This document shows, piece after piece, positions 15,640 through 59,674 of a DNA stretch of 64,000 bases. This stretch comes from Adenophora triphylla var. japonica (Eukaryota > Streptophyta > Magnoliopsida > Asterales > Campanulaceae): the NCBI GenBank assembly GCA_022495995.1, contig JAFEMH010002568.1, positions 186,001 through 250,000 of the forward strand, given 5' to 3'. The notes under the pieces are model-generated. The model had not been told where the DNA came from and ran no database searches. It saw only the letters and a program-made list of their open reading frames with translations. Made by a program: the position numbers and the translations under genes. The first letter of the stretch is position 1. Every line of letters starts with the position of its first letter.

Positions 15640-15697
15640 AGATCTGAAGCAAAATTAAAGGACAGTGTCAGATTTCTGTCCTATCCACGCGGACAAG
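15640..15697 (-). promoter_or_regulatory. Palindrome and TATA-like site upstream of the DUF7745-like gene (A)
   Basis: TATCCACGCGGACA at 15,682-15,695 is a two-mismatch version of the LTR A palindrome. A TATA-like CTTTAATTTT follows downstream on the minus strand near 15,650-15,660. The gene start lies about 100 bp further on. Confidence 0.55.
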
Positions 15698-16088
15698 TTT
15701 GTTCTCCATCAGAAAAAATCTGCAACAGTCCAAACTGCTGAACCAAAGAGGAATATTCCGTCCCGGTTGCTTGAAACCTTTGCAAAAAAAAAAAAACTTC
15801 CCCAAACCAGTCCATATACCAAACACTAACACCCTTGCCAAAAAACCAAGGCTCATGCAACATTGCATTCATACTGCATTGCATTCATAAAAATAAAATC
15901 CTAAATTATTACATTCCAAAATAAAGGGAGTGTGTAAAAAAAAAATCAAATAAAAAAAAAAGTAGGTAACAATAATCCTAAATTATTACATCTAAAAAAA
16001 AAAAAGAGAAAAAAAAATGTGCATAAGATGTACAAATCTCAATCCCAGTCACAAATCTCAATCTCAGAAAAACAGTCTAAAAGAGAAA
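15698..16088. other. Intergenic spacer, no feature
   Basis: A-rich sequence with several A-runs (15,783-15,795, 15,936-16,015) between the two antisense genes. I see no coding signal; it should hold the 3' end of the PMD transcript. Confidence 0.5.
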
Positions 16089-19016
16089 TCAATCAGAATC
16101 CCTAGCACCCGACGTCTGTCCCCGGTCCCTCTTGCGACTCGGGCCCGCCTCCTCAGGAGCCCTGAAGATCTCGGGCTCAGAATTGTCCTCGTCTCCAGAA
16201 AGAGGCTCGTCAGGACCAACCGGCACGCTCTGATTGGGCAAGCCAAGATCTGCGAAAAAATCATATCCGAAGGTGAAGGCGTCGGATTCCTGAACGTACG
16301 AAGACGACCCACCATGCTGCCAAACGTGTCCCTGCCCGTGTGGATCCCCAAGAATGACGTGATCCGAAGGCAGCACCGCGCGGGGATCAATGAGAGGAGA
16401 CAGAGGAGTCTCTGAAGAGGTCTCTGAACGAATAGGGGAAGCCTCCCGCCTGACAGGCGCCGGCCGTGGTCGCCTCGCTCTAGCCTGAGGAGCCCCGCAA
16501 GCGACCATCCTCCTGATAAATCTCTTAGCTCCAATCACTTGCTTCGTCAGCTTCTCGACGACCACCTCCGAAAACTGCACAGAAGTCAAAGCGTCAAAAA
16601 AAGGAAGTGATGCTAAAAATGATGAAGCAAAAGGAAGAAAGAAAAGACAAAAGCAAAAAAAAAAAAGAAAGGTGGGAAGGAGAAGCCATACCTTCATACC
16701 CGGACGAGGCCGGAAAGCTCGTGGAAGCCGCTCAGGCTGAGGGATCTGCACCCTCAATCGGACCCCATCCTGGACATATGAAAAATCCGTCCGAGGGTAC
16801 CGCGGGACCCCTAACCCCTCTCTATCCAGAACCTGGGGCATCCTCAGCCTCCTCAAAACAAATACGGGGTACGGCTCAATCGCCACAAATGTCGAGAAGT
16901 GCTGGCCGGCTCGGTAATCATCCCAGGTCGCAGATCTGTCACTCGGGTGCATCATATCGGCGGGAGGCTCCACCGGTGTCATCAAAGGCGAATTCACGCC
17001 ATGCTGGCGCGTCACCCTCTCTCCCAGATAATAGGCATCGCAGTCGGACCTCTCGTAATCCTCCGCTGCACAGTCCAAATCTCAGCGCCATTCAGCTGCG
17101 CCACCTCGAAACGATCCCAGGGATAGAATATCATCCTCTCATCCGTCTCAGCCTCCGTCAAAGGATGGCAATCCGCGTATCTGAGAATCGTACGCCCCCT
17201 GGAGCTTATCTTCTCTCGGGCATGCTTGGACCAGGAGCGCATGGCCGGATACGCCCCGACGTACTCCGCCGGCTGTCGCCACATCGTGACGTGGAAAAAC
17301 TCCAACGCCCATACCTGCGAAAGGTAAAAATCAAATCAATCCAGTGCAAAAGAAAAGTGTGTGCTCAAGAAAAAAGGAAAAGCAAAAAGAAAGCTTATAC
17401 CTCCAGGGCAAACTCAAAGCAGTACAAGGAGCTCACAGCCTTCCGGCTGTACCTATTAAGAGCAAAGTAAAGCTCTGCCAGCCCGGCTTCTCCCCAGGAG
17501 ACGTCTCCAGCCATCTCCATGTCCTCCAAGGACCTCAATAAGGCAAAGACTGCCGTCCCCTCAGCATGTCCAAAAAGGGTGCTCGAAAAAGCAAACCATA
17601 AGAAGGCCCTAGCAATCTGCTCAGCGCCTATCCTCTCCTCCCCAGCCTCGTAGCTCACAATGGTCTCCACAATCTTCCCATAGACCACGGCATACTCCAT
17701 CCCCATCCCCTTTTTGGGAATAGGGAAAATCCCGAAGAGCTCGCAGTCCGCGTCGCTATAGCCGTCCCGCCACTCAATGCTGCGTCCATTGAAGGACAGA
17801 CCCGTGATCGCAGCATAGTCAGAAGGCGTAACCGTAGCCTCGCCCCAGAAGAAGTGAAACGTGTGGGTCGCATCCCACCAGTGCTACGCCAAAGCAAACA
17901 TCAGGCCCTTGCTCTTAGGGAACTTGACCAACCCCCTTAAGCACTCAATGAACTCCCAAAGCCCGGTCTCAACAACAATCTGTCTCGGACTCGGCAAAGC
18001 TCCTCGGCCCGCATTCGGAAGCCGGTCCCACAAATCAACTACAGACTCCACCGATCCTCGAGTCTTCATCTTGTTCAGCTGCTCCGTAACGTAGTTGTTT
18101 CCGCCCTGCAATAAAAAAAAAGAGAGAAAATGTCAAAAAAATTTTGCATTTGCATTTGCACAAAAAAAAAAAGAAAAGCATATACATGGATCATGCAACA
18201 CAAAAGTTTTGAAGAAAATTAGGCAGCATAACGGCATACAATGAACCCAGCCCCATTTTTCTCAAAAAAGAAGCAGTTTTCACCAAATCCCAATCGACAA
18301 AATTCATACAAGGAGTCAACGGAAACAGAAAAAAAAAAACTCCGTCCCATTTTTCATAAGACATGCATACATGCATTCATCAAAAAAAAATGCATTCCTA
18401 CGGAAGTAAAAACTTCGTCCCGTTTTCATAAAATAACATGCATTCAATCAACGGGAGGAAAAATCCGTCCCACTTTTCAAAAAAAATCATACATAACATC
18501 ATCTCATGTTGGCAAAATGCCAATTCTTTTCTCAAGCAAAATGCACATTTTGGAACACCAACAAATTCATTGCAACATGCATATCATCAAGATCAATATT
18601 CAAATTTCAAAAAGAAAAATCACAATTTTCGAATTTACAAAAAAAAAATGGCGAAAATGCCAATTCTTTTTCCAAGCAAAATGCACATTTTGAGTTACCC
18701 ATATACTCATTACAACATGCAAAGCATCAAAATCAAAATCCAAGGCCATGAACATTGCATAATTTTCGAAAAAAAAATAGAGAAAAATCATCCAAAAATC
18801 AATTTCAAGCAAAAATCGACAAAGGAATCAAAAGGATTCGAAGGATACCGTTCGGAGACTCGGATCAGAAGCCCAATGTTGCCAAGCATCGGGGTAGGGC
18901 TCCTCCGCGATCGATTGCGAAAGAGTATAGTGCCTCCTCATTCGGACAAGCGCCAATCGTCTCTCCGCCACTGGGCCACGTCCTTGGCCTTGAAAAGCAC
19001 CTTCCCCGTGTTCCAT
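16089..19016 (-). pseudogene. Antisense plant mobile domain (PMD) gene, four exons, broken (element A)
   Basis: Inferred exons on the minus strand: 19,016-18,849 (56 codons), 18,105-17,401, 17,314-16,692 and 16,574-16,089. All introns are GT...AG and phase 0. Exon 2 holds the PMD core: MKTRGSVESVVDLWDRLPN, HWWDATHTFHF, VTPSDYAAITGLSFNG, and FLWFAFSSTLFGHAEG. Exon 3 includes YYLGERVTRQHG, matching YLGERVFPQHG in the B copy. Damage: in-frame TAG at 17,884-17,886, and a frameshift near 17,040-17,080 (exon 3 length is not a multiple of three). Intron 3 (16,691-16,575) is 117 bp without stops, so it reads as if coding. Exon 4 has an Arg-rich segment and a polar tail. PMD proteins MAIN and MAIL1 of Arabidopsis act in transposon silencing (family knowledge); the role here is unknown. 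Confidence 0.78.
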
Positions 19017-19159: not shown

Positions 19160-19201
19160 CATTAAAACCCTCTGGAATACGCTCCTATCCGCGCGGATAG
19201 G
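19160..19201 (-). promoter_or_regulatory. Perfect palindrome and TATA-like site of the PMD gene (A)
   Basis: CCTATCCGCGCGGATAGG at 19,184-19,201 is an 18-bp perfect palindrome. On the minus strand CAGAGGG and a weak TTTTAATG follow about 15-20 bp downstream, mirroring CAGAGGGCTATAAAT of LTR A. The PMD start is at 19,016. Confidence 0.7.
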
Positions 19202-20870: not shown

Positions 20871-20914
20871 AACTACGAAAGGGCTTGATTCCCACTAGGG
20901 ATACGTAGGTAGCC
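20871..20914 (+). other. Hairpin module, type 1
   Basis: AACTACG ... GGGCTTGATTCCC, loop ACTA, GGGATACGTAGGTAGCC. Outer stem CTACG/CGTAG, inner stem TCCC/GGGA. Confidence 0.65.
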
Positions 20915-21497: not shown

Positions 21498-21540
21498 AAC
21501 TACGACTGGCTTGATTCCCATTCGGGATACGTAGGTAGCC
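21498..21540 (+). other. Hairpin module, type 1, next to the 3' LTR
   Basis: GAACTACG ... GGCTTGATTCCC, loop ATTC, GGGATACGTAGGTAGCC; about 105 bp before the LTR. Confidence 0.65.
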
Positions 21541-21647: not shown

Positions 21648-23415
21648 TGTAAGTGCTCCAATTTGAGCTTGTTAGAATTTTTGTTAGAAAATTAATGAAA
21701 GTTATAATATTTCTAACAATTCCTAACATTCCTAACATTTCTAACCAAGTAAGGGTAGATTAGAGATTGCCAAAAAAAGATAAACCAAGGAAAGGAATCA
21801 AAAAAGCAAAAGAAATAAGAAAAACCAAAAAAAGAAATGGCTGGAAACAAAAAATGGCTGATTAATTTGAATTTTGAAAAGATTATTCCTTGTATCCAAA
21901 GCCTGAAGCTGCATTTAATGAACAGTGCACGCTGAAGGGTCCTATCCGCGCGGATACCTTTGTAAAATTCAGAGGGCTATAAATTGAGCCCTCCAGTCAC
22001 AAAAATAAGAAAGGAAGAACACAATTCACAGTTGCACCTTGGCGAAAATACTTGAGAAAATAGTGAGAATTCCCTTGAATTGTCACTCTTTTCTCTTGAT
22101 TATCTTCCCAAATCTCACTCACTCACCATCATATTCAAAGCCTCAAACACTCATACATTCAAGCCAAAGTCCCAAAACACAAAGAAGATAGGTATAACCT
22201 CCCTCTTCTCACCCTAAATCTCTCATCCATGCATGCATTTTCAAGCTACAAAATGTAGTTCATTCATCTTCTTGTCTTAGATCCAAGAAGATCACCAAGG
22301 AAGTTCATCTCCATGGATGATCTTCTACAAGGATCAACATTATTTTCAAGTTCTCTTACTTTCTTGCAAAGAAAACACATTTTCAAAACCCTAAAAACCA
22401 TTTTCAAGCAACAAATCTTGATTTCAAAGGATAAAATTCCCCTTCCCAAGCAAATGAAGTGCTTAGTCCTAATGTACCCCAAGGATGGTTTGGTATAGTT
22501 GATTCACCACTAAAATGTCAAGTGATCACTAACCAAAACCTAGGGAAATGGGGACAAGCATGGATGCAAAAAACCCCCTTTTAAATCATTTTTCCTTTCT
22601 TGAGAAGTTGCTGTCCAGTAGCAATTTTCCAAGACCCCAGTCCATTGTCTTAATTTTTGGACACAGATAAACTTGGAATTTGGTGTTTACTACAAAACAC
22701 TTTTTGTAGCCAACATCCAGAGATTTACAGATATATTTTTACTTTATTTTTTGGGTGAGTAAAACTCCTCTTTTCAAAATTTCTTTTAGAGGCCAGTTCA
22801 TCAGCTTCTGGAAATCCAGATTGCATGTCTGAGATTTCCAGAAGGTTTTGACCCCTCAAATCTTCTCCAAAATGGAAAATTCATTCGCACAAATCTTATT
22901 TAAGATGTCTGGAACAACTTTCATTCTCTGAGTTTATCCAGATTATGAAGTTTTAAGGCCCTTGAATTCATTTCAAAATCAAAGGTCCACTCCCTTTTTC
23001 ATTCTGGCAGAAGTGACTCTCAACTTCAAAAGGTCTTTTGAGTACCAAATCTCAAGCCAAAAATCTTCCGAAAAATCATGGGATCAGCTTAAAGTCTTAA
23101 AAAGATATCCCAATTTTTACTTTTCTGAGTTTCAACTTATTTTGGCCAAAACACACACACACACACCCACTAATGATTTTCAGCTTGGAAGACTCATTTT
23201 ACGAGGCATTCCGGGTGCACACTAACGTCCTTCCCGACGTGTAACATGACCTCCGAACCCAAATCTCTAATCTCGGGCATTTTTCAAAGTTTTGGCCCTT
23301 AAAACAAAAATGGCGTGGCGACTCCGTTCTTTTTCCGGGTTTTATTTGGTTTTTTCAAAGAAACGCAAAAAATCGAATTCCCTCCCGCGAGAAATTTTAG
23401 GTGGGCACATCATCA
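21648..23415 (+). repeat. 3' LTR of element A
   Basis: Starts TGTAAGTGCTCC. The end is placed at about 23,415 by comparison with the solo LTR at 42,378-44,327, whose boundaries are fixed by a target duplication. Same family as the LTR at 57,976-59,674. Contains the palindrome and TATA box at 21,943-21,985, a CA microsatellite near 23,150-23,166, and AATGGCGTGGCGACTCC near 23,309. Confidence 0.85.
21943..21985 (+). promoter_or_regulatory. LTR promoter of A: palindrome plus TATA box
   Basis: TATCCGCGCGGATA (21,943-21,956) is a perfect 14-bp palindrome. CTATAAATT (21,977-21,985) follows about 21 bp later. Confidence 0.75.
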
Positions 23416-23543
23416 AAAGTCTCGAAGACCCGTGACACTCAAAAACCTCAAAACCCCCAAACAAACCAAGGGAGGGACCTTTCTGGGACAAAAGAGCACA
23501 AAAGGACCTCAGAGGAATTTTTTAGAAACTGGAAAAACATATA

Positions 23544-23684
23544 AGGTCCGTACGGACCTCTTTGTTGCCATGATTACTGAATCCTATTAAAGTTCAAGAT
23601 ATTCAAATCCCGAAAGTAATAATTACTCAGCTACATGGGAGGTCCGTACGACCTTTATGCATGCAAGGTTGGTCCGTACGGACC
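23544..23684. promoter_or_regulatory. Three GGTCCGTACGGACC palindromes in LTR F
   Basis: AGGTCCGTACGGACCT at 23,544-23,559 (perfect, 16 bp), a one-base-deleted copy at 23,640-23,654, and GGTCCGTACGGACC at 23,671-23,684. I see no clear TATA box nearby. Confidence 0.6.
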
Positions 23685-23732
23685 TTCTTGCCTGGTCTTT
23701 CCCGAGGCGTCCCGGCTCTTTCCGAGTCAAAC

Positions 23733-23890
23733 CGGCAACTCGGACGCACGCCGAAACTCTGCCCGAGTGACCCCTGCCATCAAAACACACGCCGAACCTC
23801 TGCCCAAGTGATCCCTGCGATCCCAACGCACGCCGAACCTATGCCCGAGTGATCCCTGCGATCTCAACGCACTCTGAAACTCTGTCCGCA
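23733..23890. repeat. Short tandem repeat, about 46 bp, 3-4 copies
   Basis: Units of the form GCACGCCGAACCTCTGCCC followed by GAGTGATCCCTGCGATC. Confidence 0.75.
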
Positions 23891-24074: not shown

Positions 24075-24075
24075 A

Positions 24076-24108
<33 letters not shown>

Positions 24109-29253: not shown

Positions 29254-29262
29254 TATGCTTTT

Positions 29263-40210: not shown

Positions 40211-41100
40211 GCTAACCCCTAAACCCTAAACCCGAAACCCTAAATCCTACACCCTAAACCCTAACCCCTAACCCCTAACCCCTAACCCCTAAACCCTACA
40301 CCCTAAACCCTAAACCCTAAACCTTAAACCCTAACCCCTAAACCCTAACCCTTAAACCCTATACCCTAAACCCTAAACCCTAACCCCTAACCCCTAAACC
40401 CTAAACCCTACATTCTACACCCTAAATCCTAAATCCTAAACCCTAAACCCTAACCCCTAAACCCTAAACCCTATTCCCTACACCCTAAACCCTAAACCCC
40501 AAACCCTAACCCCTAACCCCTAACCCCTAACCCCTATACCCTATACACTATACACTATACCCTATATCCTATACACTATACCTTATACCCTATACCCTAT
40601 ACCCTATAAGGTAAAGGGTATAGTGTATAGTGTATAGGGTGTAGGGTATAGTGTATAGGGTATAGGGTATAGTGTATAGTGCATAGGGTATAGTGTATAG
40701 GGTATAGGGTATAGGGTATAGGATATAGGGTATAGAGTATAGTGTATAGGGTATAGGGTATAGGGTATATTGTATAGGGTATAGGAAATAGGGTATATGG
40801 TATAGGGTATATGGTATAGGGTATAGGGTATAGGGTATAGGGTATAGTGTATAGGATATAGGATATAGGGTATAGGGTATAGTGTATAGGGTATAGTGTA
40901 TAGGTTATAGGGTATAGGGTATAGAATATAGGATATAGGGTATAGGGTAAAGTGATTAGGGTATAGTGTATAGTGTATAGGGTATAGGGTATAGGGTATA
41001 GTATATAGTGTATAGGGTATAATGTATATGATATAGGGTATAGGGTATAGTGTATAGGGTATAGGGTATAGGGTATAGTGTATAGGGTATAGGGTATAGG
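40211..41100. repeat. Second telomere-like array with the same strand switch
   Basis: CCCTAAA-type repeats to about 40,540, CCCTATA to about 40,608, then TATAGGG. Ends abruptly at the LTR of element D. Confidence 0.9.
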
Positions 41101-42273
41101 TGTGAATGTATGCCCAAATTCTAAATTTTTGTTTTTAGATCGGATTCACGCGAGTTTGAAAACATCCAGTTTAATTTGAAAAACGGAGTCGCCACGCCAT
41201 TTTGATTTCCTCAAAACTTTGAAAAAAATGATTTTAGGGTTCGGAGGTTAAGTTACCCCTTGGGAAGAACGGATCGTCGTTCTCCCAAGGTGCCTTGCCG
41301 TAGCAAGTCTCCCTAGATTCCATTTTTCGTGCTTGCTTGCATGCTTTCTTGTGTGCATGTGTTTGAAAAGAGAGGGGGGAATGTCCCAAGTTGTCTTCCG
41401 GACGTACAAACCATTTAATTGGTTATCGCTCGGGATTCCTTGGATTTTTATGTGTTCGGGACTTTGATCCCGTCCTCATCTTGGACTTGTGATCATCGCC
41501 ATTTAACCCTTGGACTTGCGTGATCGAGAGAAGGACTCTCTTTTACAGTCCAAAATGGGGTTCTTTAGGAAAGGAGTGACCTTAGCCCATCAATCCTACG
41601 CCTTGAGACGATTGAGCTTATATGGGAGCTATCATGCTCGTCTCAAGCGATAATCGGAGATATAGGTTCAAGGTTTATCTCTTTCTAAAGAGATTGTGGC
41701 ACCTTTAATGGAAGAAACGATGTAAAGATAGGATCTTTACACCGGTCCATTCCGAAGGTTGCATCAAGTACCAATTGGGGACTAGGGGAATGCATATAAA
41801 AATGACATTTTTAGCGAAAAGATGACATTTTTGGGTGCAAATGATGCTATTTGTTTGCAAATGATGCTTTTTATGTAAAGAAATGATTTTTATGAAAATG
41901 ATGCATCTTTATGTGGAAAAATAGTGTTTTGTATGCAAAATGATGCATAAAGAAGTTATTTTGAAAGCAAAGGATGCTACTTTGATGTGAAGAAATGATT
42001 TTTAATGCAAATGATGCACCTTTAATATAAAAAAGAGATTTTAATGCAAAGGATGCTAATTTGAATGCAAAGGAATGATTTTTAATGCATGAAAATGGGT
42101 TTTAGGTGCAAAGGATGCACCTTTATGTATGAAAATGGCATTTTAATGAAATGATGATATTTTTATGTACAAAGATACTATTTAAATTGCAGATTAACAT
42201 CAGATTATAGCATGGTGAGGGTTAAAATCAGATTACAAACTGGACAGATGAAGGTTTTGCAAACTGGCCAAAG

Positions 42274-42334
42274 TTGTCGCGTGACGTAGGTTGCCTATGT
42301 CGCGTGACATAGGTTGCCTATGTCGCGTGACATA
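42274..42334. promoter_or_regulatory. Three TATGTCGCGTGACATA sites, 22-23 bp apart
   Basis: Sites at 42,274-42,288 (weaker), 42,296-42,311 and 42,319-42,334, in the downstream part of LTR D. Confidence 0.6.
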
Positions 42335-42372
42335 CTTAGCCACTTGCAGAGACCTTAACAGCTGGGATCTAC

Positions 42373-42377
42373 AGAGG
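42373..42377. repeat. Target site duplication AGAGG, left
   Basis: Repeated exactly at 44,328-44,332 around the solo LTR. Confidence 0.9.
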
Positions 42378-44327
42378 TGTAAGTGCTCCAATTTGAGTTG
42401 TTAGAATTTTCGTTAGAAAATTAACGAAAGTTTTAACATTTCTAACATTTCTAACATTTCTAACAATTCCTAACATTCCTAACAAAGTGAGGGTAGATTA
42501 GGGATTGCCATTTAAAGATAAACCATGGAAAGGAATCAAAAAAGCAAAAGAAATTGGAAAAATCCGAATTGGGCAAGTTGAAAAACATAAACTGCTGGAT
42601 TTTTGAATTTTATTCTTCCTGTCCAAAGCCTGGAGCTGCATTTAATGAACAGTGCACGTTTACATAACCCTCCGCGCGGATCTGTTTGTTTCTCACAGTG
42701 GCCTATAAATTGAACCCTCCTCTCTCAGTCTACACAACACAATTGGCTCATAGAAGCTGTATTCTGGCGAAAAATAGAGAGAAAACAGTGGGAATTCACT
42801 AGAATTGCCACCATTTTCTCTTCAATCTTTCCCAAACCCCACTCACTCAAAATACTTTCAAAACAATCTCATACATACTCTCATACATACACCAATCCAA
42901 GCTCAAATCACCCCTTAGGAGGAGGATTAGAGAGAAAACATAGAGGACTTAAGTGTTATCTACTTGTTTTCTCTTTGACCAACTCTATCATCAAACCCTA
43001 AACACATTCAAGCCTTGAATCCACCCAAACACAAATCCAAACACCAAATCTTGATACTCCTCAAGTCAAACACCAAATCTTGATACTCCTCAAGTCAAAT
43101 TCCAAGCCTAAGAAGATAGGGTGTCACTATTGGTAAAGCCCTCCTTCTCTAAACCCTAAAACTCCCTTTTAACTTCTTGTTCATCTTGTTCTTCTTACTT
43201 TAATTTACTTTATGTCTAGTTTAACTTAAATCTTGACCTAAGATGGTCATCTTGAAGTTCATCTTCATGAATGACCATCTCAAATGGTCCACATTTTAAA
43301 TCTCTAGTTGATTTTTCTCTTTAATTTCATCTCTACAAAATTCCCCTTCCCAAGCAAATGAAATGCTTAAGTCCTAATGTACCCCAAGGATGGTTTGATA
43401 TAGTAGATCACCACTAAAATGTCTAGTGACTACTAATCAAAACCTATGGAAATGGGGACAAGCATGGATGCAAAACCCCCTTTTAAATCACATTTCCGTC
43501 TTGAGAATGTTGCTGTCCAGTAGCATTTCTCTAAGACCTCAGTCCATTGTCTAAATTTTTGGACACCTATAAACATAGAATTTGGTGTTGACTACAAAAT
43601 ACTTTTTGTAGCCAACATCCATATATTTATAGACATATTTTTACTTTATTTTTTGCATGAGTAAAACTCTCTTTTTCAAATTTTCTTTTAAAGGTCAGTT
43701 CATCAGTCTCTGGAAATCCAGATTTCATATCTGAGATTTCCAGAAGGTTTTAGGTCCTAAAATCATCTCCAAAATGAAAAGATATTTTACATAAACCTTA
43801 TTTAAGGTGTTTTGAACATTTTTCATTCTCGTACTTTTCCCAGATTCTGGAGTTTTCAAGCCTTAAAGTCCATTTCAAAATCAAGTGTCCACTGCCTTCT
43901 TCATTCTGGCAGAAATGGTTTCCAACTTCCAAAAATCTTTTGAGTACCAAAACTCAACCCAAAAATGACACCAAAAATCATGGGATCATTTTAAAGTCTT
44001 AAAAAGAGTTCCCAATTTTTACTACCCTCAGTTTCAACTTATTTTGGCCAAAGTAATATACACACACACACACACACACAACAAATGGTTTTTAGCTTGG
44101 AAGACTCGTTTTACGAGGCATTCCGGGTGCACACTAACGTCCTTCCCGGCATGTAACGTGACCTCCGAACCCAAATCTCTAATCTCGGCCATTTTTCAAA
44201 GTTTTGGCCCTTAAAATAAAAATGGCGTGGCGACTCCGGTCTTTTTTTCGATTGGTTTTTCAAAGAAACGAAAAATTTCAAAGTTAAACCTTTTTCGGAA
44301 AATAAATTTTGGCGGCACATCGTCACA
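42378..44327 (+). mobile_element. Solo LTR of the A/C family
   Basis: 1,950 bp, TGTAAGTGCTCC...CATCGTCACA, flanked by AGAGG on both sides, with no internal region. Related over its whole length to the LTRs at 21,648 and 57,976. Most likely formed by recombination between two LTRs. Confidence 0.92.
42671..42712 (+). promoter_or_regulatory. Solo LTR palindrome and TATA box
   Basis: Core TCCGCGCGGA at 42,671-42,680, then CTATAAATTGAACCC from 42,703. The outer bases of the palindrome are eroded. Confidence 0.6.
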
Positions 44328-44332
44328 AGAGG
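44328..44332. repeat. Target site duplication AGAGG, right
   Basis: Matches 42,373-42,377. Confidence 0.9.
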
Positions 44333-44904
44333 CAACAAGGCATTAATACATCCAAATTACTTCACAAATAGGTCTCAGAGAGCAAGTATTTCATTAGTGA
44401 ACACTTCAAGAGGGTGTGGATATGAGGGATCCACACTCATCTCAAGTGTTCATGCAAAACAATGTCAAGCCGGAGCTATTACATGAAATGGTATGCAATC
44501 AGATATGGATCCAAGCAATATGATACTTAAAGCATGCAACTTTAATCAGGACACATCATTATTAACACATTTAACATATAGATCTCATGTATAAGGAAGA
44601 TAGGGAAAACAAAAGGGGTAGAAAATCGTTACCCTTGAAGACCACGACTTCCTATATCAAGTTAGATATAGGAGCCTTCAAACAGCAACCACCGAGGACT
44701 GATATCAAGCCTTGGTTCAATGAGAACCATTGGTTCTTGATGAGTATAGGAAGTGGTGTTGATTTGATTGAATGGTAAGTGATTTTAGGGGATTAATGTG
44801 GTTTTGGGTGTATATGGGAAGAGAGAATAGGCTCCTGGGTGTATTCTTGATAGAGTGGCACTGAGGGATGAGAGAGGCCCCCCTAAAATGAGAGCTGCAG
44901 GCCT

Positions 44905-45119
44905 CTATTTATAGGCTGCATGGCAGTGGCTTAGTATGTCGCACGACATAACAAGCCATAACCGCTTTCCTTCTAGAAACATGCAAGGTGGCAGATTCTA
45001 GAACTTACCATGGCATGGTATGTCGTACGACATAAGTAGCCTCATCCAGTTTCCTTCTAGAAATATGCAAGGTGGCAGTCTTCTAGAAGTCTTCATGGCA
45101 TGTTATGTTGCACGACATA
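44905..45119 (-). promoter_or_regulatory. LTR D promoter: TATA box and three palindromes at 84-85 bp spacing
   Basis: On the minus strand CTATAAATAGAGG (about 44,904-44,915) is the TATA box. Palindromes start at 44,935, 45,019 and 45,104; the middle one, TATGTCGTACGACATA, is perfect. The nearest is about 20 bp upstream of the TATA box. Confidence 0.75.
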
Positions 45120-45333
45120 ACAAGCCTTATCCATTTACTTTCTAGAATCATGCAAGGTGGCACTTCTAGAAGGTTTTTGGTATTAAGAAAAATGTGTTTC
45201 TTTAATTCCAATTAATCTTTTCATCCCTTAAAAGGTTCGGAACAGTTCCGGAATTGTTCTGGAACTTTAGGAAAGTCCGGGGAATTGCCGGGAAAATTAA
45301 CCGGAAGGCATGAGCCAGATTTGGGTACTTAGA

Positions 45334-45350
45334 GAAGCCCCTCGGCAACG
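45334..45350 (-). other. Polypurine tract region of element D
   Basis: Minus strand CGTTGCCGAGGGGCTTC next to the LTR. Confidence 0.65.
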
Positions 45351-46932: not shown

Positions 46933-46977
46933 TATGTCGCACGACATAAGAAGCCATGTGGACAGATTCTTTAAAAA
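46933..46977 (+). promoter_or_regulatory. Promoter of the PMD gene fragment in D
   Basis: TATGTCGCACGACATA at 46,933-46,948 matches the LTR D motif. A TATA-like CTTTAAAAATT follows about 20 bp later. The PMD start is at 47,121. Confidence 0.65.
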
Positions 46978-47120: not shown

Positions 47121-47690
47121 ATGCCTCCTAGATTGCGTCCTACCAAGAGGGCTCCACGACACGCCAAGTTGGCTACTCGACGGAAGGGGGTTCAGAGGAA
47201 CCTAAGGCCATTCATTTCGCAAGCTCAAAGAGGGGATTTCTATCCACAGCTTGATGAACACACCTCGGATGTCGGGAAGAAAAATGTGGTAAGTAACCCT
47301 TGCTAGGTTTTAAAAAATTTTGATTTGGGTGAAATTGATTGGAACTAGATTTTCCAGACTGCAATGAGTTAACACGAATTTGCATGTGAACATGGATTGA
47401 ACTAGGAAATGTGATGCTAAATGCATGTTCTTCATTGATAGATTTTGACCTATTTTCTGCTGGGGATAATTTCAAGAAACAGCACGAGATATTTATACAT
47501 GTGCTATGTTTACTTGCAGGGATTGCGCACCCGAGGTTCTCCGGAGGTGATTGGTAGGCTATGGCAGATCTTGCCGGGCAGCCAGGAGCAGATACATTCA
47601 CCTAAGGGCATGGTCTACGCCGTTGGGCTGGGGCAATTTTTTGAGATGGCGAAGGCCATCGGAGACACCCAGAGGAGTGTGGATTTGGGT
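47121..47690 (+). pseudogene. PMD gene, first two exons only (element D, antisense)
   Basis: Exon 1 47,121-47,288 (56 codons, the same length as in A): Arg/Lys-rich MPPRLRPTKRAPRHAK, then FYPQLDEHTSDVGK. Donor GTAAGT at 47,289; acceptor TTGCAG ends at 47,519. Exon 2 starts LRTRGSPEVIGRLWQILPG and reaches VYAVGLGQFFEMAKAIG, aligning with the start of exon 2 in A (MKTRGSVESVVDLWDRLPN). Homology stops near 47,690, before the TW/HTFHF and AITGL blocks, where a 3' region of another element begins. Truncated gene. Confidence 0.72.
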
Positions 47691-49535: not shown

Positions 49536-49556
49536 CTTATGACCGGACCATTTCTG

Positions 49557-50194: not shown

Positions 50195-51178
50195 TGTAGC
50201 GTTGTGAGAAAGAATTTTATCTTTTTGTTTGAGTCGCCACCTATATTATTCGATTGGAAACATAGAAAAACCATTTTGAAAGAGATTTGGGTTCGGGGCT
50301 TAGGTTATGAAATGGGTAGGTCAAGGAGCATCCATTTCACCCAATCCGGAGATCGGTCTTGCTAAAGAAAAGAGAGGTTTTTAAAAGAAGAGAAAAGACG
50401 ATTTTAAATATTACAAATAAAGATCCATTTAACGGGGTTAAACGGAATGTAGGATCAATTGCTTCGAGACCGTCTCCATGATTTGGAGAGGCTCTAGGCC
50501 GATCCTAGATTCTATGGACTTATACCACTCTAACAATCAATTAGAAAGGGATTTAGAGGTTACCTTGCGTGAGGTGATTTGGGCAGAGTTTCGACTCATG
50601 TTTTAGAATCGACTCTCGATATGGACAGAGCTTCGCCTCGATCCTTGACTTGGATCTTGATGTTTGTTTATCAACAAGGTTGACAAACAAACTTTGAGGT
50701 GATTTTTAGGGTGATTTTGTAGGATTCTTTCAGGGAAAGAAGCCAACAAAATGTGTGTGAATTGTGGAATTCCGGACCTCTTGAACCTTGGAAGTCACCA
50801 AGTATTTATAGGGGTTGGAAATGAAGAAGTGGAGAGGTAAAACCCTATCAGGAGGTTCTGGACTCCAAATCCCATTGGTTGGCCGGATGGATAAAGTTTT
50901 ATCCCGAAAAGAGGTTGAAATCGACGAGGAAACTGTCTTCTGCATGCTACAGAGGGAGGATATCTCGCGCAAGACACGCCATCTCACGGCGAGATATTGC
51001 TCCTGTGGACAGTCTTGTCCTTTCCTCGTTATCTCGTATATAGTTTAGTCCCAAACTAATGGTGGTTAGTCAAAACTTAACGAAACATGACGAAATGGTG
51101 GATTTCTACTTCTTGACTCAAAGCGAGACTTAGAGTGGTATAAGTATGATCCGATGTGTTCAGAATGGGGTGTCTACA
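50195..51178 (-). repeat. 3' LTR of element B
   Basis: 984 bp; plus-strand ends TGTAGCGTTG and GGTGTCTACA. Different family from A/C. The lineage mark GAGTCGCCACC is at 50,232. Confidence 0.8.
50804..50996 (-). promoter_or_regulatory. LTR B promoter: two palindromes and TATA box
   Basis: TATCTCGCGCAAGACA (50,961-50,976) and ATCTCACGGCGAGAT (50,981-50,995), centres about 19 bp apart. Minus-strand TATA box CTATAAATACTTGG lies near 50,802-50,815, about 150 bp downstream. Confidence 0.65.
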
Positions 51179-52089: not shown

Positions 52090-52147
52090 TATCTCGCCGC
52101 GAGATAAGGTATACCGCGCGAGACTTGCACTGTCGGGGCATATAAAT
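52090..52147 (+). promoter_or_regulatory. Promoter of the PMD gene in B
   Basis: TATCTCGCCGCGAGATA (52,090-52,106; one extra base in the centre) and a weaker GTATACCGCGCGAGAC (52,109-52,124). TATA box CATATAAATC at 52,139-52,148. Start codon at 52,294. Confidence 0.75.
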
Positions 52148-52293: not shown

Positions 52294-54565
52294 ATGGCTC
52301 AAGAGAAAAGGAATCCGATTTTGGGGAGCTATTTTCTAGGGAAGGATTATCCTCGCGATGATCTCACCTTCGATAGGCACGCGCATATCTCCATCGCTGT
52401 TCGGGAGGGCTTGGTAAGAACTTCTTCTTCACCTCTTGTTTCTCATATTGCATTGAGTTTGAATCCCCTTTCTCTTGAATTCAAAATTCCATCAATGGCT
52501 TTTGTTCTTGTCTATGCTTAGAACTAGGTTCTTTCTTACATGCGTTGATCTTGTGCATTTCTTTGGGTGATTGTTGTTGCATTGTGTGCGTATGAACCTC
52601 CAACACATCATGGATTGTAGGAGAGGTTGATTCGGATCATGAATGACATTCTTGGGCAAGCTTTTCTTGTACGCACGCCAAGTGTTTGATGAAATGCCCC
52701 AATGAAAATTTTCTTCTATTTCATTGATTTCTTGACATGGAATGATTTCTAATGTTGTTGCCCTTTTTGCTTTTCCTCCGTTTTGCAGTCGTATAAGCCA
52801 ACGAAGAATTGCCGAGGAAGCCCGAAAATGGCTAAAGCGGTTTGGGACAAGATCAAGGATCTTGATGGCGTTCGGGATAGAGTGGCCCAAACGGGTCTTC
52901 TGACTTTTGTTGACAATCTCCGGGGAATAAGGCGGACTCCCCAAGTTCTTCAGGCTATTCGGGAAAGGTGGTGGGATACTACCCATACCGTTCACTTGCG
53001 CTTCGGGGAAGTGACCATGACTCCGACTGATTTTCTTGCCATCACGGGGTTAGAGTTCATTGGCGATCCTCTGCCGAAGATTTTGGGTTATAAGCCTGCG
53101 GGTCCAGCTGCGTGGAGGCAGCTGATCGGTTTCTCCCCTAACAAGGTTAAGGGGTTTGCTGCTGAGTTGACACCCCTCCGACGTCAAATTGAGGAGTATG
53201 CGGAGAAGCCGAATGCAGTCACTGATCGACTGGTGAGGGGGGCCCTCTGGTATATTCTTTCCGAGACCATCTTCGCGAACCACTCTTCTACGGCTCGTCT
53301 TTCTTTGTTACGTTTGTTGGTGAATCTGGATGAGGTGAGTGGATATGATTGGGGCTCAGCGAGGCTGGCCTTCTGCTACCACGCCATGGATGAGGCGTGT
53401 AGGAGTACCAAGGATTCCCTGTCAGGGTATTCTTATGCCTGGGAGGTATGCCCTTTAACTTTGTTTCTGTTTTCTGTCTGTATGCTCTGTCTGTGTTTCA
53501 TACTGAATTTGCTCTGTTTTCTTTGTGCAGATATGGGGCTACACTGTCCTTGGGCTGTACAAGTTTGAGTTGGAGAGCCGGACCCCTTTGTTCCCGGATA
53601 TCAGGAGGTGGAGCCACCCTAATCGGAGCGTTGATGAGGAGGAGGACCAGGAGTAGACCCTGACGGTCGCGGAGGCGCGGGCCATGCTGGATACTTTCGA
53701 GTATGAGAGGCTGGGCCTATATCCCTGGACCTTGTTGGCGCGGGAGGTGCATCATGCTTGGGATGCTACTGGGATGCAGAGGATGCTGGCATCTTTGGAG
53801 GGAGATACCATGTATCTTGGTGAGCGGGTCTTCCCACAGCATGGCCAGGGTAGATTGCCATACAGCGTGCAAGCAGATCCACCGAGGGCGATGTATCCCA
53901 CCCACTCTATTCCGGATGATGACTATGTAGGTCTTCTGGTGGGTGATGTGGCGACGGCTTGTGTGATCCCCGGGGCCTCTTATGCGGAGTTCCTGCCTCG
54001 ATTGATGGGTCCCCTCCTAGTGGGTGATAGGCGATCACATGCTCGTGGCTCTGTCTCTGCTTCTGCTTCAGGTTCCTCAGCCCCTAGCACTTCTTCCCAG
54101 TATGCTGGTTCTCTGCCTTTTGCCCCGGATTTCAGTCCTCTGAGCTACACGTATATGATGGGGAGCATGTCGATGATGGGGCACATCCCGTCTCTTGATC
54201 AGATTCCCGAGGTTTACTGCCTCCCGGCTGATGTCTCTTCGGTATGTTTCTGTTCATATTATATCTCGTATTCGTCCATATAAGTGTATATGTCCGACTT
54301 CATCTGAGCATCTCTCTTCTTTTTCTTTGGTTGTCAGGTCACCATATCCGCGGCTGATTATAACCATGGAGCGACCAAGATGGCGGGACTGATGGCCCTG
54401 GTGTCGAATCTGTCCGAGAGGCTGTTTCACAAGGCTTCTTTGGCGGCCTCGACAGTGGCCTCGGCGGTGACCCCTACTTGCGGAGCCAAGAGGACGAGGA
54501 GGGATGGTAGCCCCCGTGGTGGAGATGGCAGAGGTGCCGGCGGCTCGAGCAACTTGATGGCGTGA
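52294..54565 (+). pseudogene. Plant mobile domain (PMD) gene, four exons, one in-frame TAG (element B)
   Basis: Exons 52,294-52,413, 52,789-53,445, 53,531-54,241 and 54,338-54,565, all with GT...AG introns and phase 0, giving 571 codons. Exon 2 carries the PMD core: WWDTTHTVHLRFGEVTMTP, DFLAITGLEFIGDPLP, ALWYILSETIFANHSS, and YDWGSARLAFCYHAMDEA. Exon 3 includes YLGERVFPQHGQGRLPY. Exon 4 ends Lys/Arg/Gly-rich. The only visible lesion is TAG at 53,654-53,656 (codon 42 of exon 3); the frame is otherwise open, so the loss may be recent. Exon layout equals that of the A copy. Related to the MAIN/MAIL1 family of Arabidopsis; the transposon-encoded form has no proven function. It is transcribed against the element and should start from the palindrome/TATA promoter at 52,090. 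Confidence 0.82.
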
Positions 54566-54906: not shown

Positions 54907-55005
54907 TATCTCGCGCGAGATAAGGTGTCTCGTACGAGACACGCTACCCAGGCAGAGGTCTCTTCCTTTTTCGAACAGGATTTTGTCAGTTTTCCCTATA
55001 AAATC
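54907..55005 (+). promoter_or_regulatory. Promoter of the DUF7745-like gene in B: two perfect palindromes and TATA box
   Basis: TATCTCGCGCGAGATA (54,907-54,922) and GTGTCTCGTACGAGACAC (54,925-54,942) are both perfect; their centres are 19 bp apart. CTATAAAATC at 54,996-55,005 is the TATA box, 70-100 bp before the first ATGs. Confidence 0.8.
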
Positions 55006-55076: not shown

Positions 55077-56602
55077 TTGGCTTCTTTTCTAACCCTACGA
55101 TCCATGGCTTCCAAGGAGATTGCCCCAACGTCCATGATTGTCGATGATTTTTCTCTGTCTTCTGATGTGATCGAATCTTTCAAGCAAGCATCAAGGGATT
55201 TTGTGAGGTCGTTTCGCAACCGGTCTCGAAATAGGTTTATTGCAGAATTTGGATTCAGAATTCTTTTCACTTTGAAGAACCTCCAACCGGATTGGAATCT
55301 CTTGCAGGGTGCTGCTCAATTTTGGGATTCCTCTATCCATCTTTTCAATTTTTCTTTGAATGAGATGGTGCCTACTGTGGAGGAATTTGCCATTATCTTG
55401 GATATGCCTTTAACTGGCGAGATTGCTGTTCCTAAGTACCATAGGATTCACTCGGAGGCTTTGAATGAGTTGTTAGGGATCCCCCTTGATACTTGCTACG
55501 AGTTGGTTCAACGCAAGTGGGTTGATTGCTCTTCTTTTCCGGGACGCTTCAGCGGTGATTCAGATGAAGACGCTTTTCATGTCTATAAGCGGAACTTTCT
55601 GGATCTTTCTCTTTTCGGAGATGTTCTGTTTACATGCAGGGACGGCTTGGTTGACTCCCAACTGGTGGAAATTGTTCTGCAGGCTAGAAAACGTTCTAGG
55701 AACATTATTCCGCTAATCTTGGGTGAGACCCTGCATGGTCTTGATGAGCTGCATAGGACCGGTGCCATGACTCAAGGGAGTCCTCTTCTGTTGACCATTT
55801 GGCTTAGGGAGCATCTCAAGTTGGTAGGTCCCCCATTGGAATATTCCCCTTTCACATATCATACGCGAAAGTTATTGATCAAGGATCTTTCAGCGGATGA
55901 ATGAAATTTGAGTCGATTGCGAAGACCGAAACTGCTGATATTCTTTGGTGTCCACCTTATTGGAGGTTGAACAAGTATGTTGCCAATACCAAGGGTTTTG
56001 ACAGGGTCGTTCTTCTGGGTTTGCGAGATTCCTCCTTTTATTTTCCCAAGCGGGTGCTCCGTCAGCTTGGTCAGCAACAGGACACTTATCTTTTCGAAGG
56101 AGCTTCTCGTGAAGTGTCTTATATTGGTGTAGAGTTTGCGCAGGCGCTAGCTCAAGCATGGGGTGAAGGAACTAGTCGGGACCGCTGGTCGAACCTTCGG
56201 ACCTTTAATGCAAGCATCTTCTTATCTGATAAGTATTTGGATTGGTTCCTTCATACCGGTCACCCTAGTGCGGAGAAGATTGACGATCTGCGGCTTTCAC
56301 TGCTAGGAGACTCTTTTGTGGCTAGCAGTATTTTGCGGAGGAGTGAGGCTCAGTCTGATCCTGCTAATGTACGAACTGATCCAACTCAGGATTTTCTCGA
56401 TGGGGATTGGTACGAGAGGCGAGGCAAAGGGATGCCTGGAAAGACGCAAGCTTTAGATAGGCCCAGTGTCTTTAAGAGTCTTTCGGAAACTGTCTTTGAT
56501 TACCTCGAGGGATGCTCTGCTTTGAGGGGCTCAAAGCGCAAGAAGGATCGCGAAGACGGTGGTGACCATGTCCGCCGGCCTACCAAGTCAATGAAAGGCT
56601 AG
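55077..56602 (+). pseudogene. DUF7745-like accessory gene (element B), one frame change
   Basis: Start is ATG 55,077 or, more likely, 55,104. The first frame runs to TGA 55,902-55,904 with MVPTVEEFAIILDMPL, IVLQARKRSRNIIPLILGE and GSPLLLTIWLREHLKLVG. The second frame (55,901-56,602) continues the same protein: ADILWCPPYWRLNKY, SSFYFPKRVLRQLGQQ, and a basic tail GSKRKKDREDGG. The A copy reads through this point in one frame apart from a TAG (14,793), so a one-base indel near 55,890-55,905 is the best reading. The two frames meet in an ATGA overlap. The domain is common in plant retroelements and distantly PMD-like; function unknown. Confidence 0.78.
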
Positions 56603-56728: not shown

Positions 56729-56790
56729 AATGCATTCGATTAATGAAAGGACAAAATTGGATTTATTTATTTGATTAGACCGAACCCGGA

Positions 56791-56843
56791 GGCTGCCCAC
56801 GTTCCTCTTTTACAGCAATTAAATAAGAGGCTCAGTTCTAAAG
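56791..56843 (-). other. Hairpin module, type 2 (B, divergent)
   Basis: GGCTGCCCACGTTCCTCTT ... AAGAGGCTCAG on the plus strand. The inner stem CCTCTT/AAGAGG is perfect with a longer loop, but the outer CTACG arm is eroded. Confidence 0.5.
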
Positions 56844-56880: not shown

Positions 56881-56932
56881 TGCCGAGGGGTAATCTCACG
56901 CGAGATAAGGCCTTTTTTATATATATATTTCA
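56881..56932 (+). promoter_or_regulatory. Extra palindrome with TATA-like run between integrase and the accessory genes (B)
   Basis: ATCTCACGCGAGAT (56,893-56,906) is a one-mismatch copy of the B palindrome. A PPT-like GCCGAGGGG precedes it, and TTTATATATATATTT (56,916-56,930) follows. Confidence 0.5.
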
Positions 56933-57075: not shown

Positions 57076-57975
57076 TCACGCGAAGTACTTCTTGAGCTTG
57101 TCCATGTTGACCGGCTTCGGTAGTTGATCTCCGTCTAAGTCCACCAGCTGAAGGGCTCCCCCAGAGAATATCTTCTTCACAATGTAGGGTCCTATCCATC
57201 TTGGTCCCCACTTGCCTAGAGGGTTGAAAGGTCCAGGACGGTGCTCGCGGAGAACCAGGTCACCTACTCTGATGTTCCTTGTCTTGACCTTTTTGTTGAA
57301 AGCTCTTGCCATTCTTCTTTGGTAAGCTTGAGTGTGTTCGGCTGCTTTCAACCTTCTTTCGTCCAACAGGGCCAAATCTTCGTATCTGCTTCCAGTCGAC
57401 TTCGTTCACTTGGTTTTCTAGGAGAACCCGTAGTGATGGTATTTCCAATTCTATCGGTAAGACAGCCTCCATTCGGAATGTGAGGGCATAGGGAGTCTCT
57501 CCTGTAGCTATTCGGACTGAAGTGCGGTATCCCCACAGTGCGAATGGTAACTTGTCGGGCCAGTCTTTTCCAGTGACTGCCATTTTTCTGATGATAGTCT
57601 CGATTGTTTTGTTCGCGGCTTCAACTGCTCCGTTCGTTTGAGGCCTGTAAGGAGACGACTTGTGCCTCGTGATTTTGTATTCGATTAGGAGGCGATCAGT
57701 TTCCTTCTCGAAGTGGGACCCATTATCGGATATCATCTCTTGCGGAACTCCATACCGGCAGATGATGTTGTGCTTGATGAATTCTGCAACCTTTTTGGAA
57801 TTCAGAACTTTGTAGGAGGCGGCCTCAACCCATTTAGTGAAATAGTCGATGGCTACTAGGATGAAGCAATGTCCGTTGACTCCTACGGGTGTGACCTTTC
57901 CAATCACGTCTATCCCCCACGTAGAGAATGGCCAAGGAGAAATCATAGGGTACAGCAAGGAAGGCAGTGCGTGCT
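57076..57975 (-). pseudogene. Integrase of element B, catalytic core and C terminus
   Basis: Minus strand. The core has the complete triad: GIDVIGKV (Asp near 57,914), ISDNGSHF (Asp near 57,726) and VEAANKTI (Glu near 57,620), with about 35 residues between the last two. YRPQTNGAVEAAN and WGYRTSVRIATGETP are strong Tat-type integrase marks. A one-base frameshift near 57,370-57,385 separates the core from the C-terminal part (LALLDERRLKAAEHT to KPVNMDKLKKYFA, stop at 57,076). Upstream the gene is cut at 57,975 by the LTR of element C, so the zinc-binding domain is outside. No chromodomain. Confidence 0.9.
57971..57975. repeat. Expected target duplication of element C (GTGCT), left copy
   Basis: Five bases next to the LTR start. 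The partner copy should lie beyond the right edge of the window. Confidence 0.4.
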
Positions 57976-59674
57976 TGTGATGTACCCGATTTTTTTTTTT
58001 GAAAATCAAACGGAGTCGCCACGCCATTTTTGTTTTAAGGGCCAAAACTTTGAAAAAAGCCCGAGATCAGAGATTTAGGTTCGGAGGTCACGTTACGTGC
58101 CGGGAAGGACGTTAGTGTGCACCCGGAACGCCTCGTAAAAACGAGTCTTCCAAACATTCAAAATCCTTTGTTGTGTGTGTGTGGGTGTGTGTGTTGGCCA
58201 AAATAAGTTGAAACTGAGGTAAGTAAAAATTGGGAGCTCTTTTTAAGGCTTTAAACTGATCTCATGATTTTTTGGGTGATTTTTGGGTTGAGATTTGGCA
58301 CTCAAAAGATTTTCGGAAGTTGAAAACCATTTCTGCCAGAATGAAAAAGGCAGTTGACCCTTGACTTTGAAATGGACTTTAGGGCTTGAAAACTCCAGAA
58401 TATGGGAAAAGTCCGGGAATGAAAAATGTTCAAAACACCTTAAAAAAGGTTTCTGTTAAAGAACTTTTCATTTTGGAGATGATTTGAGGGGTCAAAACCT
58501 TCTGGAAATCTCAGATCTGAAATCTGGATTTCCAGAAGCTGATGAACTGGCCTCTAAAAGAAAAATTGAAAAGAGGAGTTTTACTCACGCAAAAAATAAA
58601 TTAAAAATATTTCTGGAAATCTCTAGATGTTGGCTACAAAAAGTGTTTTGTAGTCAACATCCAATTCCAAGTTTTACTGGGTCCAAAAAATAGGAAAATG
58701 GACTGAGGTCTCAGAACAATGCTACTGGACAGCAAGATGTTATTGAGGGAAAATGTGATTTTTGGGGGATTTGCATCTATGTTCACCCCATTTTCATCCC
58801 TAGACTTGATACCACTACTTTTTGTTAAGTGGTTATCATATTCAAGTCATCCTTGGGGAATTTATGGGGTTGAAACATGTCCTTTGCAAAGGGAAAGGGG
58901 ATGTTTTGTAGAAATGAAATTTAAGAGAAAAATCAACTAGAGATCTAAAATGTGGACCATTTGAGATGGTCATTCATGAAGATGAACTTCAAGATGACCA
59001 TCTTGGGTCAAAACTTAAGTTAAAATAGACATCAAAAAGACCCAAGTAAGAAGAACAAGATGAACAAGAAGTTAAAAGAGAATTTTAGGGTTTTGAGAAG
59101 GAGGGCTTTACCAATGGTGACACCCTATCTTCCTAGGCTTGGAATTTGACTTGAGGAGTATCAAGATTTGGTGTTTGGCTTGAGGAGTATCAAGGTTTGG
59201 TGTGTTTGGTATTTGATTGGGAAAGATTCAAGAGAAAATGGTGACAATCTAAGGATTCCCACTGTTTTCTCTCTATATTTCGCCAGAACTTCGTTGCTGT
59301 GAGTAAGTTGTGTTGTGTAAACTGAGAGAGGAGGGTTCAATTTATAACCCCCTGTGAGAGTCAAACATATCCGCGCGGACAAGGTTGGTCGCGTGCACTG
59401 TTCATTAATTACAGCTTCAGGCTTTGGACAGGAAGAATAATCTTTTCAAAATTCAAATTAATCAGCCAGTTTTTGTTCCAGCCATTTCTATTTAGGGTTT
59501 TTCTTATTTCTTTTGCTTTTTTGATTCCTTTTCTTGGTTTATCTTTTTTTGGCAATCCCTAATCTACCCTTACTTGGTTAGAAATGTTAGGAATGTTAGG
59601 AATTGTTAGAAATGTTATAACTTTCGTTAATTTTCTAACGAAAATGCTAACAAGCTCAAATTGGAGCACTTACA
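57976..59674 (-). repeat. 3' LTR of element C
   Basis: 1,699 bp; plus-strand ends TGTGATGTACCC and GAGCACTTACA. Collinear in reverse with 21,648-23,415 and with the solo LTR at 42,378. TG microsatellite at 58,172. Confidence 0.88.
59338..59381 (-). promoter_or_regulatory. LTR C promoter: palindrome and TATA box
   Basis: TATCCGCGCGGACA (59,368-59,381; one arm mismatched) with minus-strand TTATAAATTG near 59,337-59,346, about 22 bp downstream. Confidence 0.7.

Follow-up and report, generated by a model that had tools for sequence, protein, structure and literature searches.

Why should the long terminal repeat (LTR) of a retrotransposon and the internal promoters of its antisense accessory genes carry the same palindrome, and why should this palindrome differ from one element family to the next? 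The question is raised by a stretch of Adenophora triphylla var. japonica DNA (contig JAFEMH010002568.1, positions 186,001 to 250,000; the whole 64-kb stretch is termed the window), in which an earlier note had described such palindromes in three LTR elements, here termed A, B, and D, and had proposed that an element protein binds them as a shared operator. The observation was confirmed: different sites in A, B, and D recur at LTR and antisense promoters. The interpretation is plausible and was partly supported. As judged from the sequence, and with a probability that we put at roughly 0.58, an element-encoded nuclear protein of the PMD superfamily may bind its own operator and thereby control both its own gene and the LTR.

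The window is DNA of plant type, to judge by its PMD and DUF7745 genes, and is built of nested elements. The evidence comes from the three named above together with two further A-family LTRs, one belonging to a second A-family element (A2) and one a solo LTR. In element A, pol occupies the + strand, and the antisense genes, located between pol and the 3' LTR, the - strand; elements B and D are read on the - strand and their antisense genes on the + strand. VANDALs are MULE-type DNA transposons, and no such carrier was found here, as A, B, and D all possess LTRs and a polypurine tract (PPT)-like sequence. Gene starts are presumed ATGs, and the exons of B PMD were read from the sequence.

The quoted palindromes were found within 1-2 bp of the positions given by the earlier note. 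In A, the 14-bp site is exact in the LTR and at the PMD promoter, and the site at the DUF7745-like promoter is, as had been claimed, weaker. Both further A-family LTRs of the window keep an A-type site (1 mismatch in A2, 3 in the solo LTR), and at ≤2 mismatches the A pattern has 4 matches, all in A-family promoters (shuffle mean 0.06). Element B has a paired architecture: two palindromes of the form TATCTCGC(C)GCGAGATA stand at each of its LTR, PMD, and DUF7745 promoters (3/3), with centres 19.5, 19.5, and 19.0 bp apart, respectively; the second palindrome of the PMD promoter (52110-52125) is degenerate, with 4/8 pairs. At ≤3 mismatches, the B pattern yields 7 matches, 3 in B and 4 that are D sites (shuffle mean 0.14). 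Further along B, downstream of DUF7745, positions 56892-56930 possibly form another promoter without a recognised gene.

Element D carries a 30-bp composite, GGCT-N3-TATGTCG-N2-CGACATA-N3-AGCC. Exact TATGTC-N4-GACATA occurs at 42296, 42319, 44935, 45019, and 46933, the last at the PMD promoter, and 45104 has one mismatch. Six sites had been claimed for the D LTR; five of them stand (four exact, and 45104), and the sixth, presumably 42273, is degenerate (4/8 pairs). The D pattern at ≤2 mismatches gives 10 matches, 6 in D (five exact) and 4 elsewhere, with a shuffle mean of 1.96. Scored against the composite consensus (22 fixed bases, drawn from the same sites), the PMD site and 44935 have no mismatch, 45019 has 1, 45104 and 42319 have 2 each, and the other sites of the distal array have 3 (42296) and 6 (42273).

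In order to compare promoters with no motif specified, we aligned eight of them pairwise and locally (the LTR, PMD, and DUF7745 promoters of A and B, and the LTR and PMD promoters of D), using 220 bp upstream of the TATA box or ATG, except that the A DUF7745 promoter was given 252 bp to include its known site. Because the sites were known when the regions were chosen, this test is motif-free rather than blind. The best local alignment fell on the palindrome in 7/7 within-element pairs, with scores of 13.0-27.0, and the within-minus-between difference of 8.02 was reached by 2/560 labelings, the least possible number given that the A and B labels are exchangeable; the motif thus agrees within each element and differs between families, as the earlier note had it. 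When the operators were masked, the difference dropped to 0.07 and was reached by 262/560 labelings. Since the excess vanishes, the within-element similarity is confined to the operator, and the palindrome is the only similarity detected between LTR and antisense-gene promoters. Nearest-neighbour classification assigned 19/19 sites to the right family, or 8/8 with one site per promoter, a result that is partly circular because the sites were gathered with family patterns. In all three elements, then, the motif recurs in the element's own non-coding DNA and differs from that of the other families.

The geometry relative to the core promoter is also repeated. Measured from its edge, the operator stands 21 bp before a TATA or TATA-like box in the A, A2, A-family solo, and D LTRs and at the D PMD promoter, 19 bp before one at the A PMD promoter, and 22 bp before one at the A DUF7745 promoter; the spacings of B differ from those of A and D, being 15 bp (PMD), 55 bp (DUF7745), and 150 bp (LTR). 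A canonical TATA box lies 15-55 bp downstream of the site in 6/10 promoters and 150 bp downstream in the B LTR; the boxes of the remaining three (A PMD, A DUF7745, and D PMD; 19-22 bp) are weak and TATA-like and carry little weight alone. From the nearer operator edge to the presumed ATG we measured 170 bp for A PMD (from 19186 to the ATG at 19016), 169 bp for B PMD (ATG 52294), 163 bp for B DUF7745 (55104), and 173 bp for D PMD (47121). A spacing of 163-173 bp is thus found in 4/5 antisense genes from three elements, the fifth (A DUF7745) being ambiguous, with three candidate ATGs 125, 173, or 214 bp downstream of the operator. Tandem arrays, the carriers in the VANC arrangement, were tried and rejected as operator carriers, with 0 matches in six arrays (≤3 mismatches for A, ≤4 for B and D).

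The only accessory genes recognised in these elements are the antisense genes. An antisense PMD open reading frame (ORF) lies between pol and the 3' LTR in both A and B, where PF10536 scores above its gathering score of 34.9 bits (67.2 bits in A, 71.3 bits in B); the two proteins match at 33% by tblastn. The A copy is damaged, as there is an in-frame stop at 17884-17886, and the last part of B PMD runs in a single frame through to 54565. The A DUF7745-like gene matches B DUF7745 at 29-32% by tblastn and PMD weakly (E=0.19); it has no Pfam DUF7745 hit of its own. Because the B DUF7745 protein also matches PMD (E=3.6e-7, 30.1 bits, below the cut-off), both accessory genes probably belong to one superfamily. 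The DUF7745 reading frame is broken at a roughly homologous position in A (14793-14795, - strand; an in-frame stop) and B (55902-55904, + strand; a stop with an overlapping ORF), which may reflect decay, an intron, or recoding. The C-terminal ends of both PMD and both DUF7745 proteins are basic and resemble nuclear localisation signals (NLS). B PMD matches DUF1985 below threshold (E=0.006-0.008; 17 bits at E=0.006, cut-off 35.1) and A PMD has no DUF1985 match in Pfam, so that neither element yielded a DUF1985 protein. In D, only a PMD-like remnant was found, of which 47520-47690 gave no Pfam hit. Protein searches returned 8 DUF7745 and 32 PMD homologues, some named from Vaccinium, Rhododendron, Prunus, Parasponia, Macleaya, and Fagus; viral and prokaryote contig collections yielded no independent relatives, and a B PMD fragment matched no solved structure at E≤1.

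From these observations a mechanism can be proposed. A family-specific palindromic operator stands, at the level of sequence, upstream of the core promoter both in the LTR and at the antisense genes. A dimer bound to it would act on initiation, which we infer because the site is symmetric and its TATA-like spacing is near-constant in A and D, and this regulator would there meet the basal machinery. The likeliest binder would be the antisense-encoded PMD protein, or the related DUF7745 protein, returning to the nucleus by means of its basic, NLS-like tail. Both the letters and the architecture of the site are shared within an element and change between elements, which suggests a factor travelling with the element; the antisense genes, being the only recognised accessory genes and carrying the site, make autoregulation plus LTR control the simplest circuit. 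A single protein that binds its own promoter and the LTR would govern its own abundance together with the amount of genomic RNA. Activation or anti-silencing is slightly favoured over repression, because the sites are placed ahead of the TATA box and do not overlap it, and because they are rich in CpG and so potential targets of methylation. From family to family, operator and protein would diverge in step and so insulate the families from each other.

Several points weigh against this proposal. The binding protein is inferred from sequence, and the elements number only three, in damaged or partial copies. No DNA-binding domain was identified in PMD or DUF7745, AlphaFold models based on two-row alignments were too poor to use (pLDDT 38.7 and 44.3), and DUF7745 is not visible in D. 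Among the sites, that of A DUF7745 is weak and that of the B LTR is imperfect and 150 bp from its TATA box. The lowest within-element alignment score equals the highest between-element one (13.0 each), and 3/21 between-element pairs also align on palindromes, with scores of 9.5-10.5. In the A-family LTR copies, the 14-bp site does not appear clearly better kept than its surroundings: 11/14 positions are kept in the solo LTR, compared with 78% over the LTR, and 13/14 in A2, compared with 77% over the LTR and 90% in the site-bearing BLAST segment. The operator CpGs are kept 3/3 in 3/3 of these copies, but 11 others of the 33 CpG columns are kept likewise, so that this retention speaks only weakly for selection. 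The visible antisense side of A2 has no A-type site at ≤3 mismatches, and no PMD gene was recognised there either.

The main rival, which we consider rather unlikely although it could produce the same picture through a host-factor family with variable paralogues, is that one or more host transcription factors read CpG-rich palindromes, each element family having recruited the same site to all of its promoters so that they fire jointly. The operators of the three families have a common TAT...CG...ATA form, on which the 3/21 between-element pairs align and which paralogous specificities could read, and placement upstream of a TATA box is ordinary for host activators. A single factor, however, predicts one common site, whereas the bases between TAT and CG differ consistently by family (C, CT, GT), and the architecture varies (single, double, or 30-bp composite), yet the sites agree within each element. 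Two known host sites were considered and rejected. The auxin response element motif is TGTCTC/TGTCGG. TGTCTC is present on both strands of the second palindrome of B DUF7745, and TGTCG is present in D, but this motif does not account for all three families because the exact sites of A have neither TGTCTC nor TGTCG. CAMTA proteins recognise CGCG boxes, which would fit A only.

It is improbable, in our estimate, that the antisense promoters arose long ago by duplication of the LTR promoter, the palindrome having been copied by template switching or gene conversion with no co-regulation involved. Long shared stretches, with mismatches, do occur at the operator: the LTR and PMD promoters of D have 32 bp in common, and the PMD and DUF7745 promoters of B have 40 bp. 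However, masking the operators leaves promoters of one element no more similar than promoters of different elements, so one promoter is not simply a copy of another, and duplication as a simple explanation is rejected; a copy old enough to leave only the operator would itself need selection on the operator. Still less probable is that the palindromes act with no factor bound, either through structure or epigenetically (as a cruciform, an RNA hairpin, a seed of methylation, or a target of integration). They are perfect or near-perfect inverted repeats with several CpGs, and the title of one study, cited in PMC11963269, reports targeting of palindromes by LTR retrotransposons; structure alone, though, does not demand the similar distances to TATA (A, D) and ATG or the retention of a family-specific sequence, and transcription presumably starts downstream of the U3 sites.

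The window as a whole is rich in palindromes, with 135 raw near-palindromes compared with a shuffle mean of 58.4. A motif-free scan found 24 CpG-rich ones (≥2 CpG), of which 8 lie in ten promoter segments totalling 2.5 kb. One rule delimits these segments (~250 bp upstream of the ATG or TATA box), but the sites were already known when they were drawn. The remaining 61.5 kb contains 16, of which 7 belong to a LINE-like repeat, 2 to the D distal array, and 2 to an LTR remnant termed F, with 5 others. The binomial value for 8 of 24 is 2e-6, a figure that ignores the non-independence of tandem copies. Four of the ten segments (the B LTR, A DUF7745, A2 LTR, and A-family solo LTR) have no site at this threshold. 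Chance, aided by a reader's choice of striking motifs in a repeat-rich window, could draw on this excess and on the late drawing of the segments, but is hardly credible given the 4 A-pattern matches against a shuffle mean of 0.06 and the outcome of the permutation and masking test.

We retain the autoregulatory PMD-superfamily protein as the preferred reading. The operators, genes, and LTRs to which it refers are listed in Table 1.

Table 1 Operators, antisense genes, and element parts in the window.
Feature	Positions	Strand	Description
A operator in LTR, TATCCGCGCGGATA	21943..21956	+	Exact; 21 bp before TATAAATT
A operator at PMD promoter	19184..19201	-	18-bp perfect palindrome; exact core 19186-19199
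A weak operator at DUF7745-like promoter	15682..15695	-	2 mismatches
A-type operator in A2 LTR	59368..59381	-	1 mismatch; 21 bp before TATAAATT
A-type operator in A-family solo LTR	42669..42682	+	3 mismatches, core CCGCGCGG intact; 21 bp before TATAAATT
B double operator in LTR	50961..50996	-	50961-50976 and 50980-50996, imperfect, 6/8 pairs each; 150 bp before TATAAATA
B double operator at PMD promoter	52090..52125	+	52090-52106 perfect 17-mer; 15 bp before TATAAATC
B double operator at DUF7745 promoter	54907..54941	+	54907 exact; both palindromes perfect; 55 bp before TATAAAAT
B-type single operator downstream of DUF7745	56892..56907	+	2 mismatches; 10 bp before TATATATA
D operator at PMD promoter	46933..46948	+	Centre of 30-bp composite; 21 bp before weak TATA-like box
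D operators in LTR U3	44935..45119	-	Sites 45104, 45019, 44935; 44935 stands 21 bp before TATAAATA
D distal LTR array, three sites	42273..42334	-	23-bp spacing; downstream of LTR TATA box; third degenerate
A antisense PMD gene	16092..19016	-	Several ORFs; PF10536 E=2e-18 in 17398-17883
A antisense DUF7745-like gene	14061..15509	-	Broken by stops; start uncertain
B antisense PMD gene	52294..54565	+	ORFs 52753-53565, 53657-54280; PF10536 E=1.8e-19
B antisense DUF7745 gene	55104..56602	+	Two overlapping ORFs; PF24924 E=6e-13 to 8e-13, and 0.005
D antisense PMD-like gene remnant, 5' part only	47121..47690	+	34% to A PMD over 50 aa, E=3e-5
A 3' LTR	21648..23415	+	TGTAAG start after PPT-like GCCGAGGGGCTAC; right end approximate
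B 3' LTR	50230..51178	-	TGTAGA start beside PPT-like GCCGAGGGGCTC; left end approximate
D 3' LTR	41100..45335	-	Sequence reading; ends approximate
A-family solo LTR interrupting D 3' LTR	42378-44327		AGAGG on both sides (target-site duplication), homology
B integrase ORF (pol strand of B)	57263..58066	-	PF00665 E=9e-11

The A 3' LTR is homologous to 42378-44327 and to 59674-~57981, and its right end was set by homology to the solo LTR in D; the B 3' LTR has a U5-like GAGTCGCCAC near 50230. An integrase (B) or integrase-like stretch (A) lies on the strand opposite the PMD genes. The stretch in A (5656-6093) is 80% identical to the B integrase and has no Pfam hit of its own, and the B integrase ORF is cut by the insertion of A2. 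No pol was seen in D. A reverse transcriptase (RT) gave no hit at E≤1e-3 in the five A sense ORFs scanned, so this copy of A may lack RT/RNase H.

Other features of the window were noted in passing. A sense ORF of A contains a G-patch domain (4465-5247), and a gag/protease-bearing Ty3-type element (6316-13503), a recent insertion since its terminal repeats are 99% identical, is apparently inserted just after the A integrase region. Adjoining the A 3' LTR, the LTR remnant F (23416-24340) has three sites of its own palindrome type, GGTCCGTACGGACC (23545, 23641 imperfect, and 23671), which shares the half-site TCCG with A but differs from it in the centre and flanks; no antisense gene belonging to F was identified in the window. 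The unit at 25788-41103, with LINE-like ORFs (29251-33719) between two 3.47-kb direct repeats that are 97% identical, also carries minisatellites and GACGGAATATTCCGTC palindromes. It was considered as an Ogre-like LTR element and rejected, as its Pfam domains (endonuclease, RVT_1, zf-RVT) are LINE-like, and its palindromes were put aside for the same reason.

Two conserved blocks seem together to bracket the accessory genes. One, GGCTACCTACGTATCCC...GGAATCAAGCC...CGTAGTTCG, adjoins the PPT side of A, A2, D, and B; it occurs at 20882-20914 and 21508-21540 (- strand) and at 59783-59815 (+ strand), with similar sequence seen by eye near 45460, 45560, and 51265, and is predicted to form hairpins with variable folds. 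A related block, GGYTGCCTACGTTCC..., ending near CGTAGTTC, lies near the pol side of the antisense-gene region (13765-13830, - strand; 49556-49605, 56785-56840, and 63195-63245) and is weaker in B.

More broadly, PMD-superfamily proteins encoded by transposable elements (PMD, DUF7745, and perhaps the DUF1985 of VANC) may be fast-evolving, sequence-specific DNA-binding regulators with private operators in giant Tat-type elements, a generalisation that we offer tentatively. If it were true, a private operator with fixed core-promoter geometry would constitute a self-controlling circuit, coupling antisense accessory-gene expression to LTR transcription and keeping co-resident families apart.

The comparisons that follow draw on parts of the cited papers. 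PMD is present in 57% of Ogre elements (PMC6317226); in Ogre/Tat elements with a PMD extra ORF, that gene lies beside pol, as it does here, where it is antisense, between pol and the 3' LTR. Antisense genes and tandem arrays between pol and the 3' LTR are also found in Retand, for whose antisense TRP28 ORFs the author proposes a DNA-binding regulatory role (PMC11963269, PMC7264820). The TRP28 domain (PF04195) was not among the hits for the antisense ORFs scanned here, and the excerpts describe no operator or cis-site for Retand. For Grande, a related element, the antisense GENE23 protein is reported to be located in the nucleus and to be expressed from a promoter of its own (PMC7264820). HBZ of HTLV-1 and other retroviral antisense regulators are likewise nuclear regulators encoded antisense to gag-pol, but the antisense promoter of HTLV lies in the 3' LTR (PMC11963269, PMC7264820) and ours is internal. 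Among the open-licence PMC matches listed, titles and abstract openings contained no report of a promoter motif common to antisense genes and LTR.

PMD clades A1 and A2 are Gypsy-encoded, and the function of PMD is stated to be undetermined (PMC5418596). The host PMD proteins MAIN and MAIL1 affect transcription of genes with a promoter motif, and direct recognition of this motif is one of the authors' hypotheses (PMC7156037, PMC9899485). The likeness lies in PMD proteins that are linked both to a motif in promoters (DOWN; CATGCAGTTT in the promoter of MORC1) and to silencing of transposable elements; the difference is that MAIN and MAIL1 are host genes of clade PMD-C, and that their motif, as printed, is not palindromic and does not resemble the three operators. 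By analogy, MAIN/MAIL1 and VANC make a regulatory role for element PMD proteins plausible.

The closest parallel is VANC. VANC proteins contain DUF1985 and recognise short motifs that are specific to each family and lie in tandem repeats, as established by chromatin immunoprecipitation and electrophoretic mobility shift assay (PMC5735166); the motifs include YAGTATTAY and AGTTGTCC (PMC5735166, PMC10398659). Both systems have an element-encoded accessory protein and a short family-specific motif in non-coding DNA, and the joint change of motif and protein between related VANDAL families has a putative counterpart in A, B, and D. The DUF1985 match of B PMD, being sub-threshold, is a lead and not a sign of VANC membership. 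The VANC motifs, which are short and lack palindromic symmetry as written, occur in tandem repeats, whereas the operators described here, known from their sequence, are single or paired palindromes at promoters. An element-encoded regulator with a cognate motif is a known kind of system, and its occurrence in LTR retrotransposons would be new. If true, a family-specific operator at LTR and PMD promoters would offer a concrete, testable target for the accessory proteins and would carry VANC-like logic over from DNA transposons to the large LTR retrotransposons found in plants. It would also suggest how several families can share a genome without activating one another, and would bear on the way in which promoters are found by the host proteins MAIN/MAIL1.

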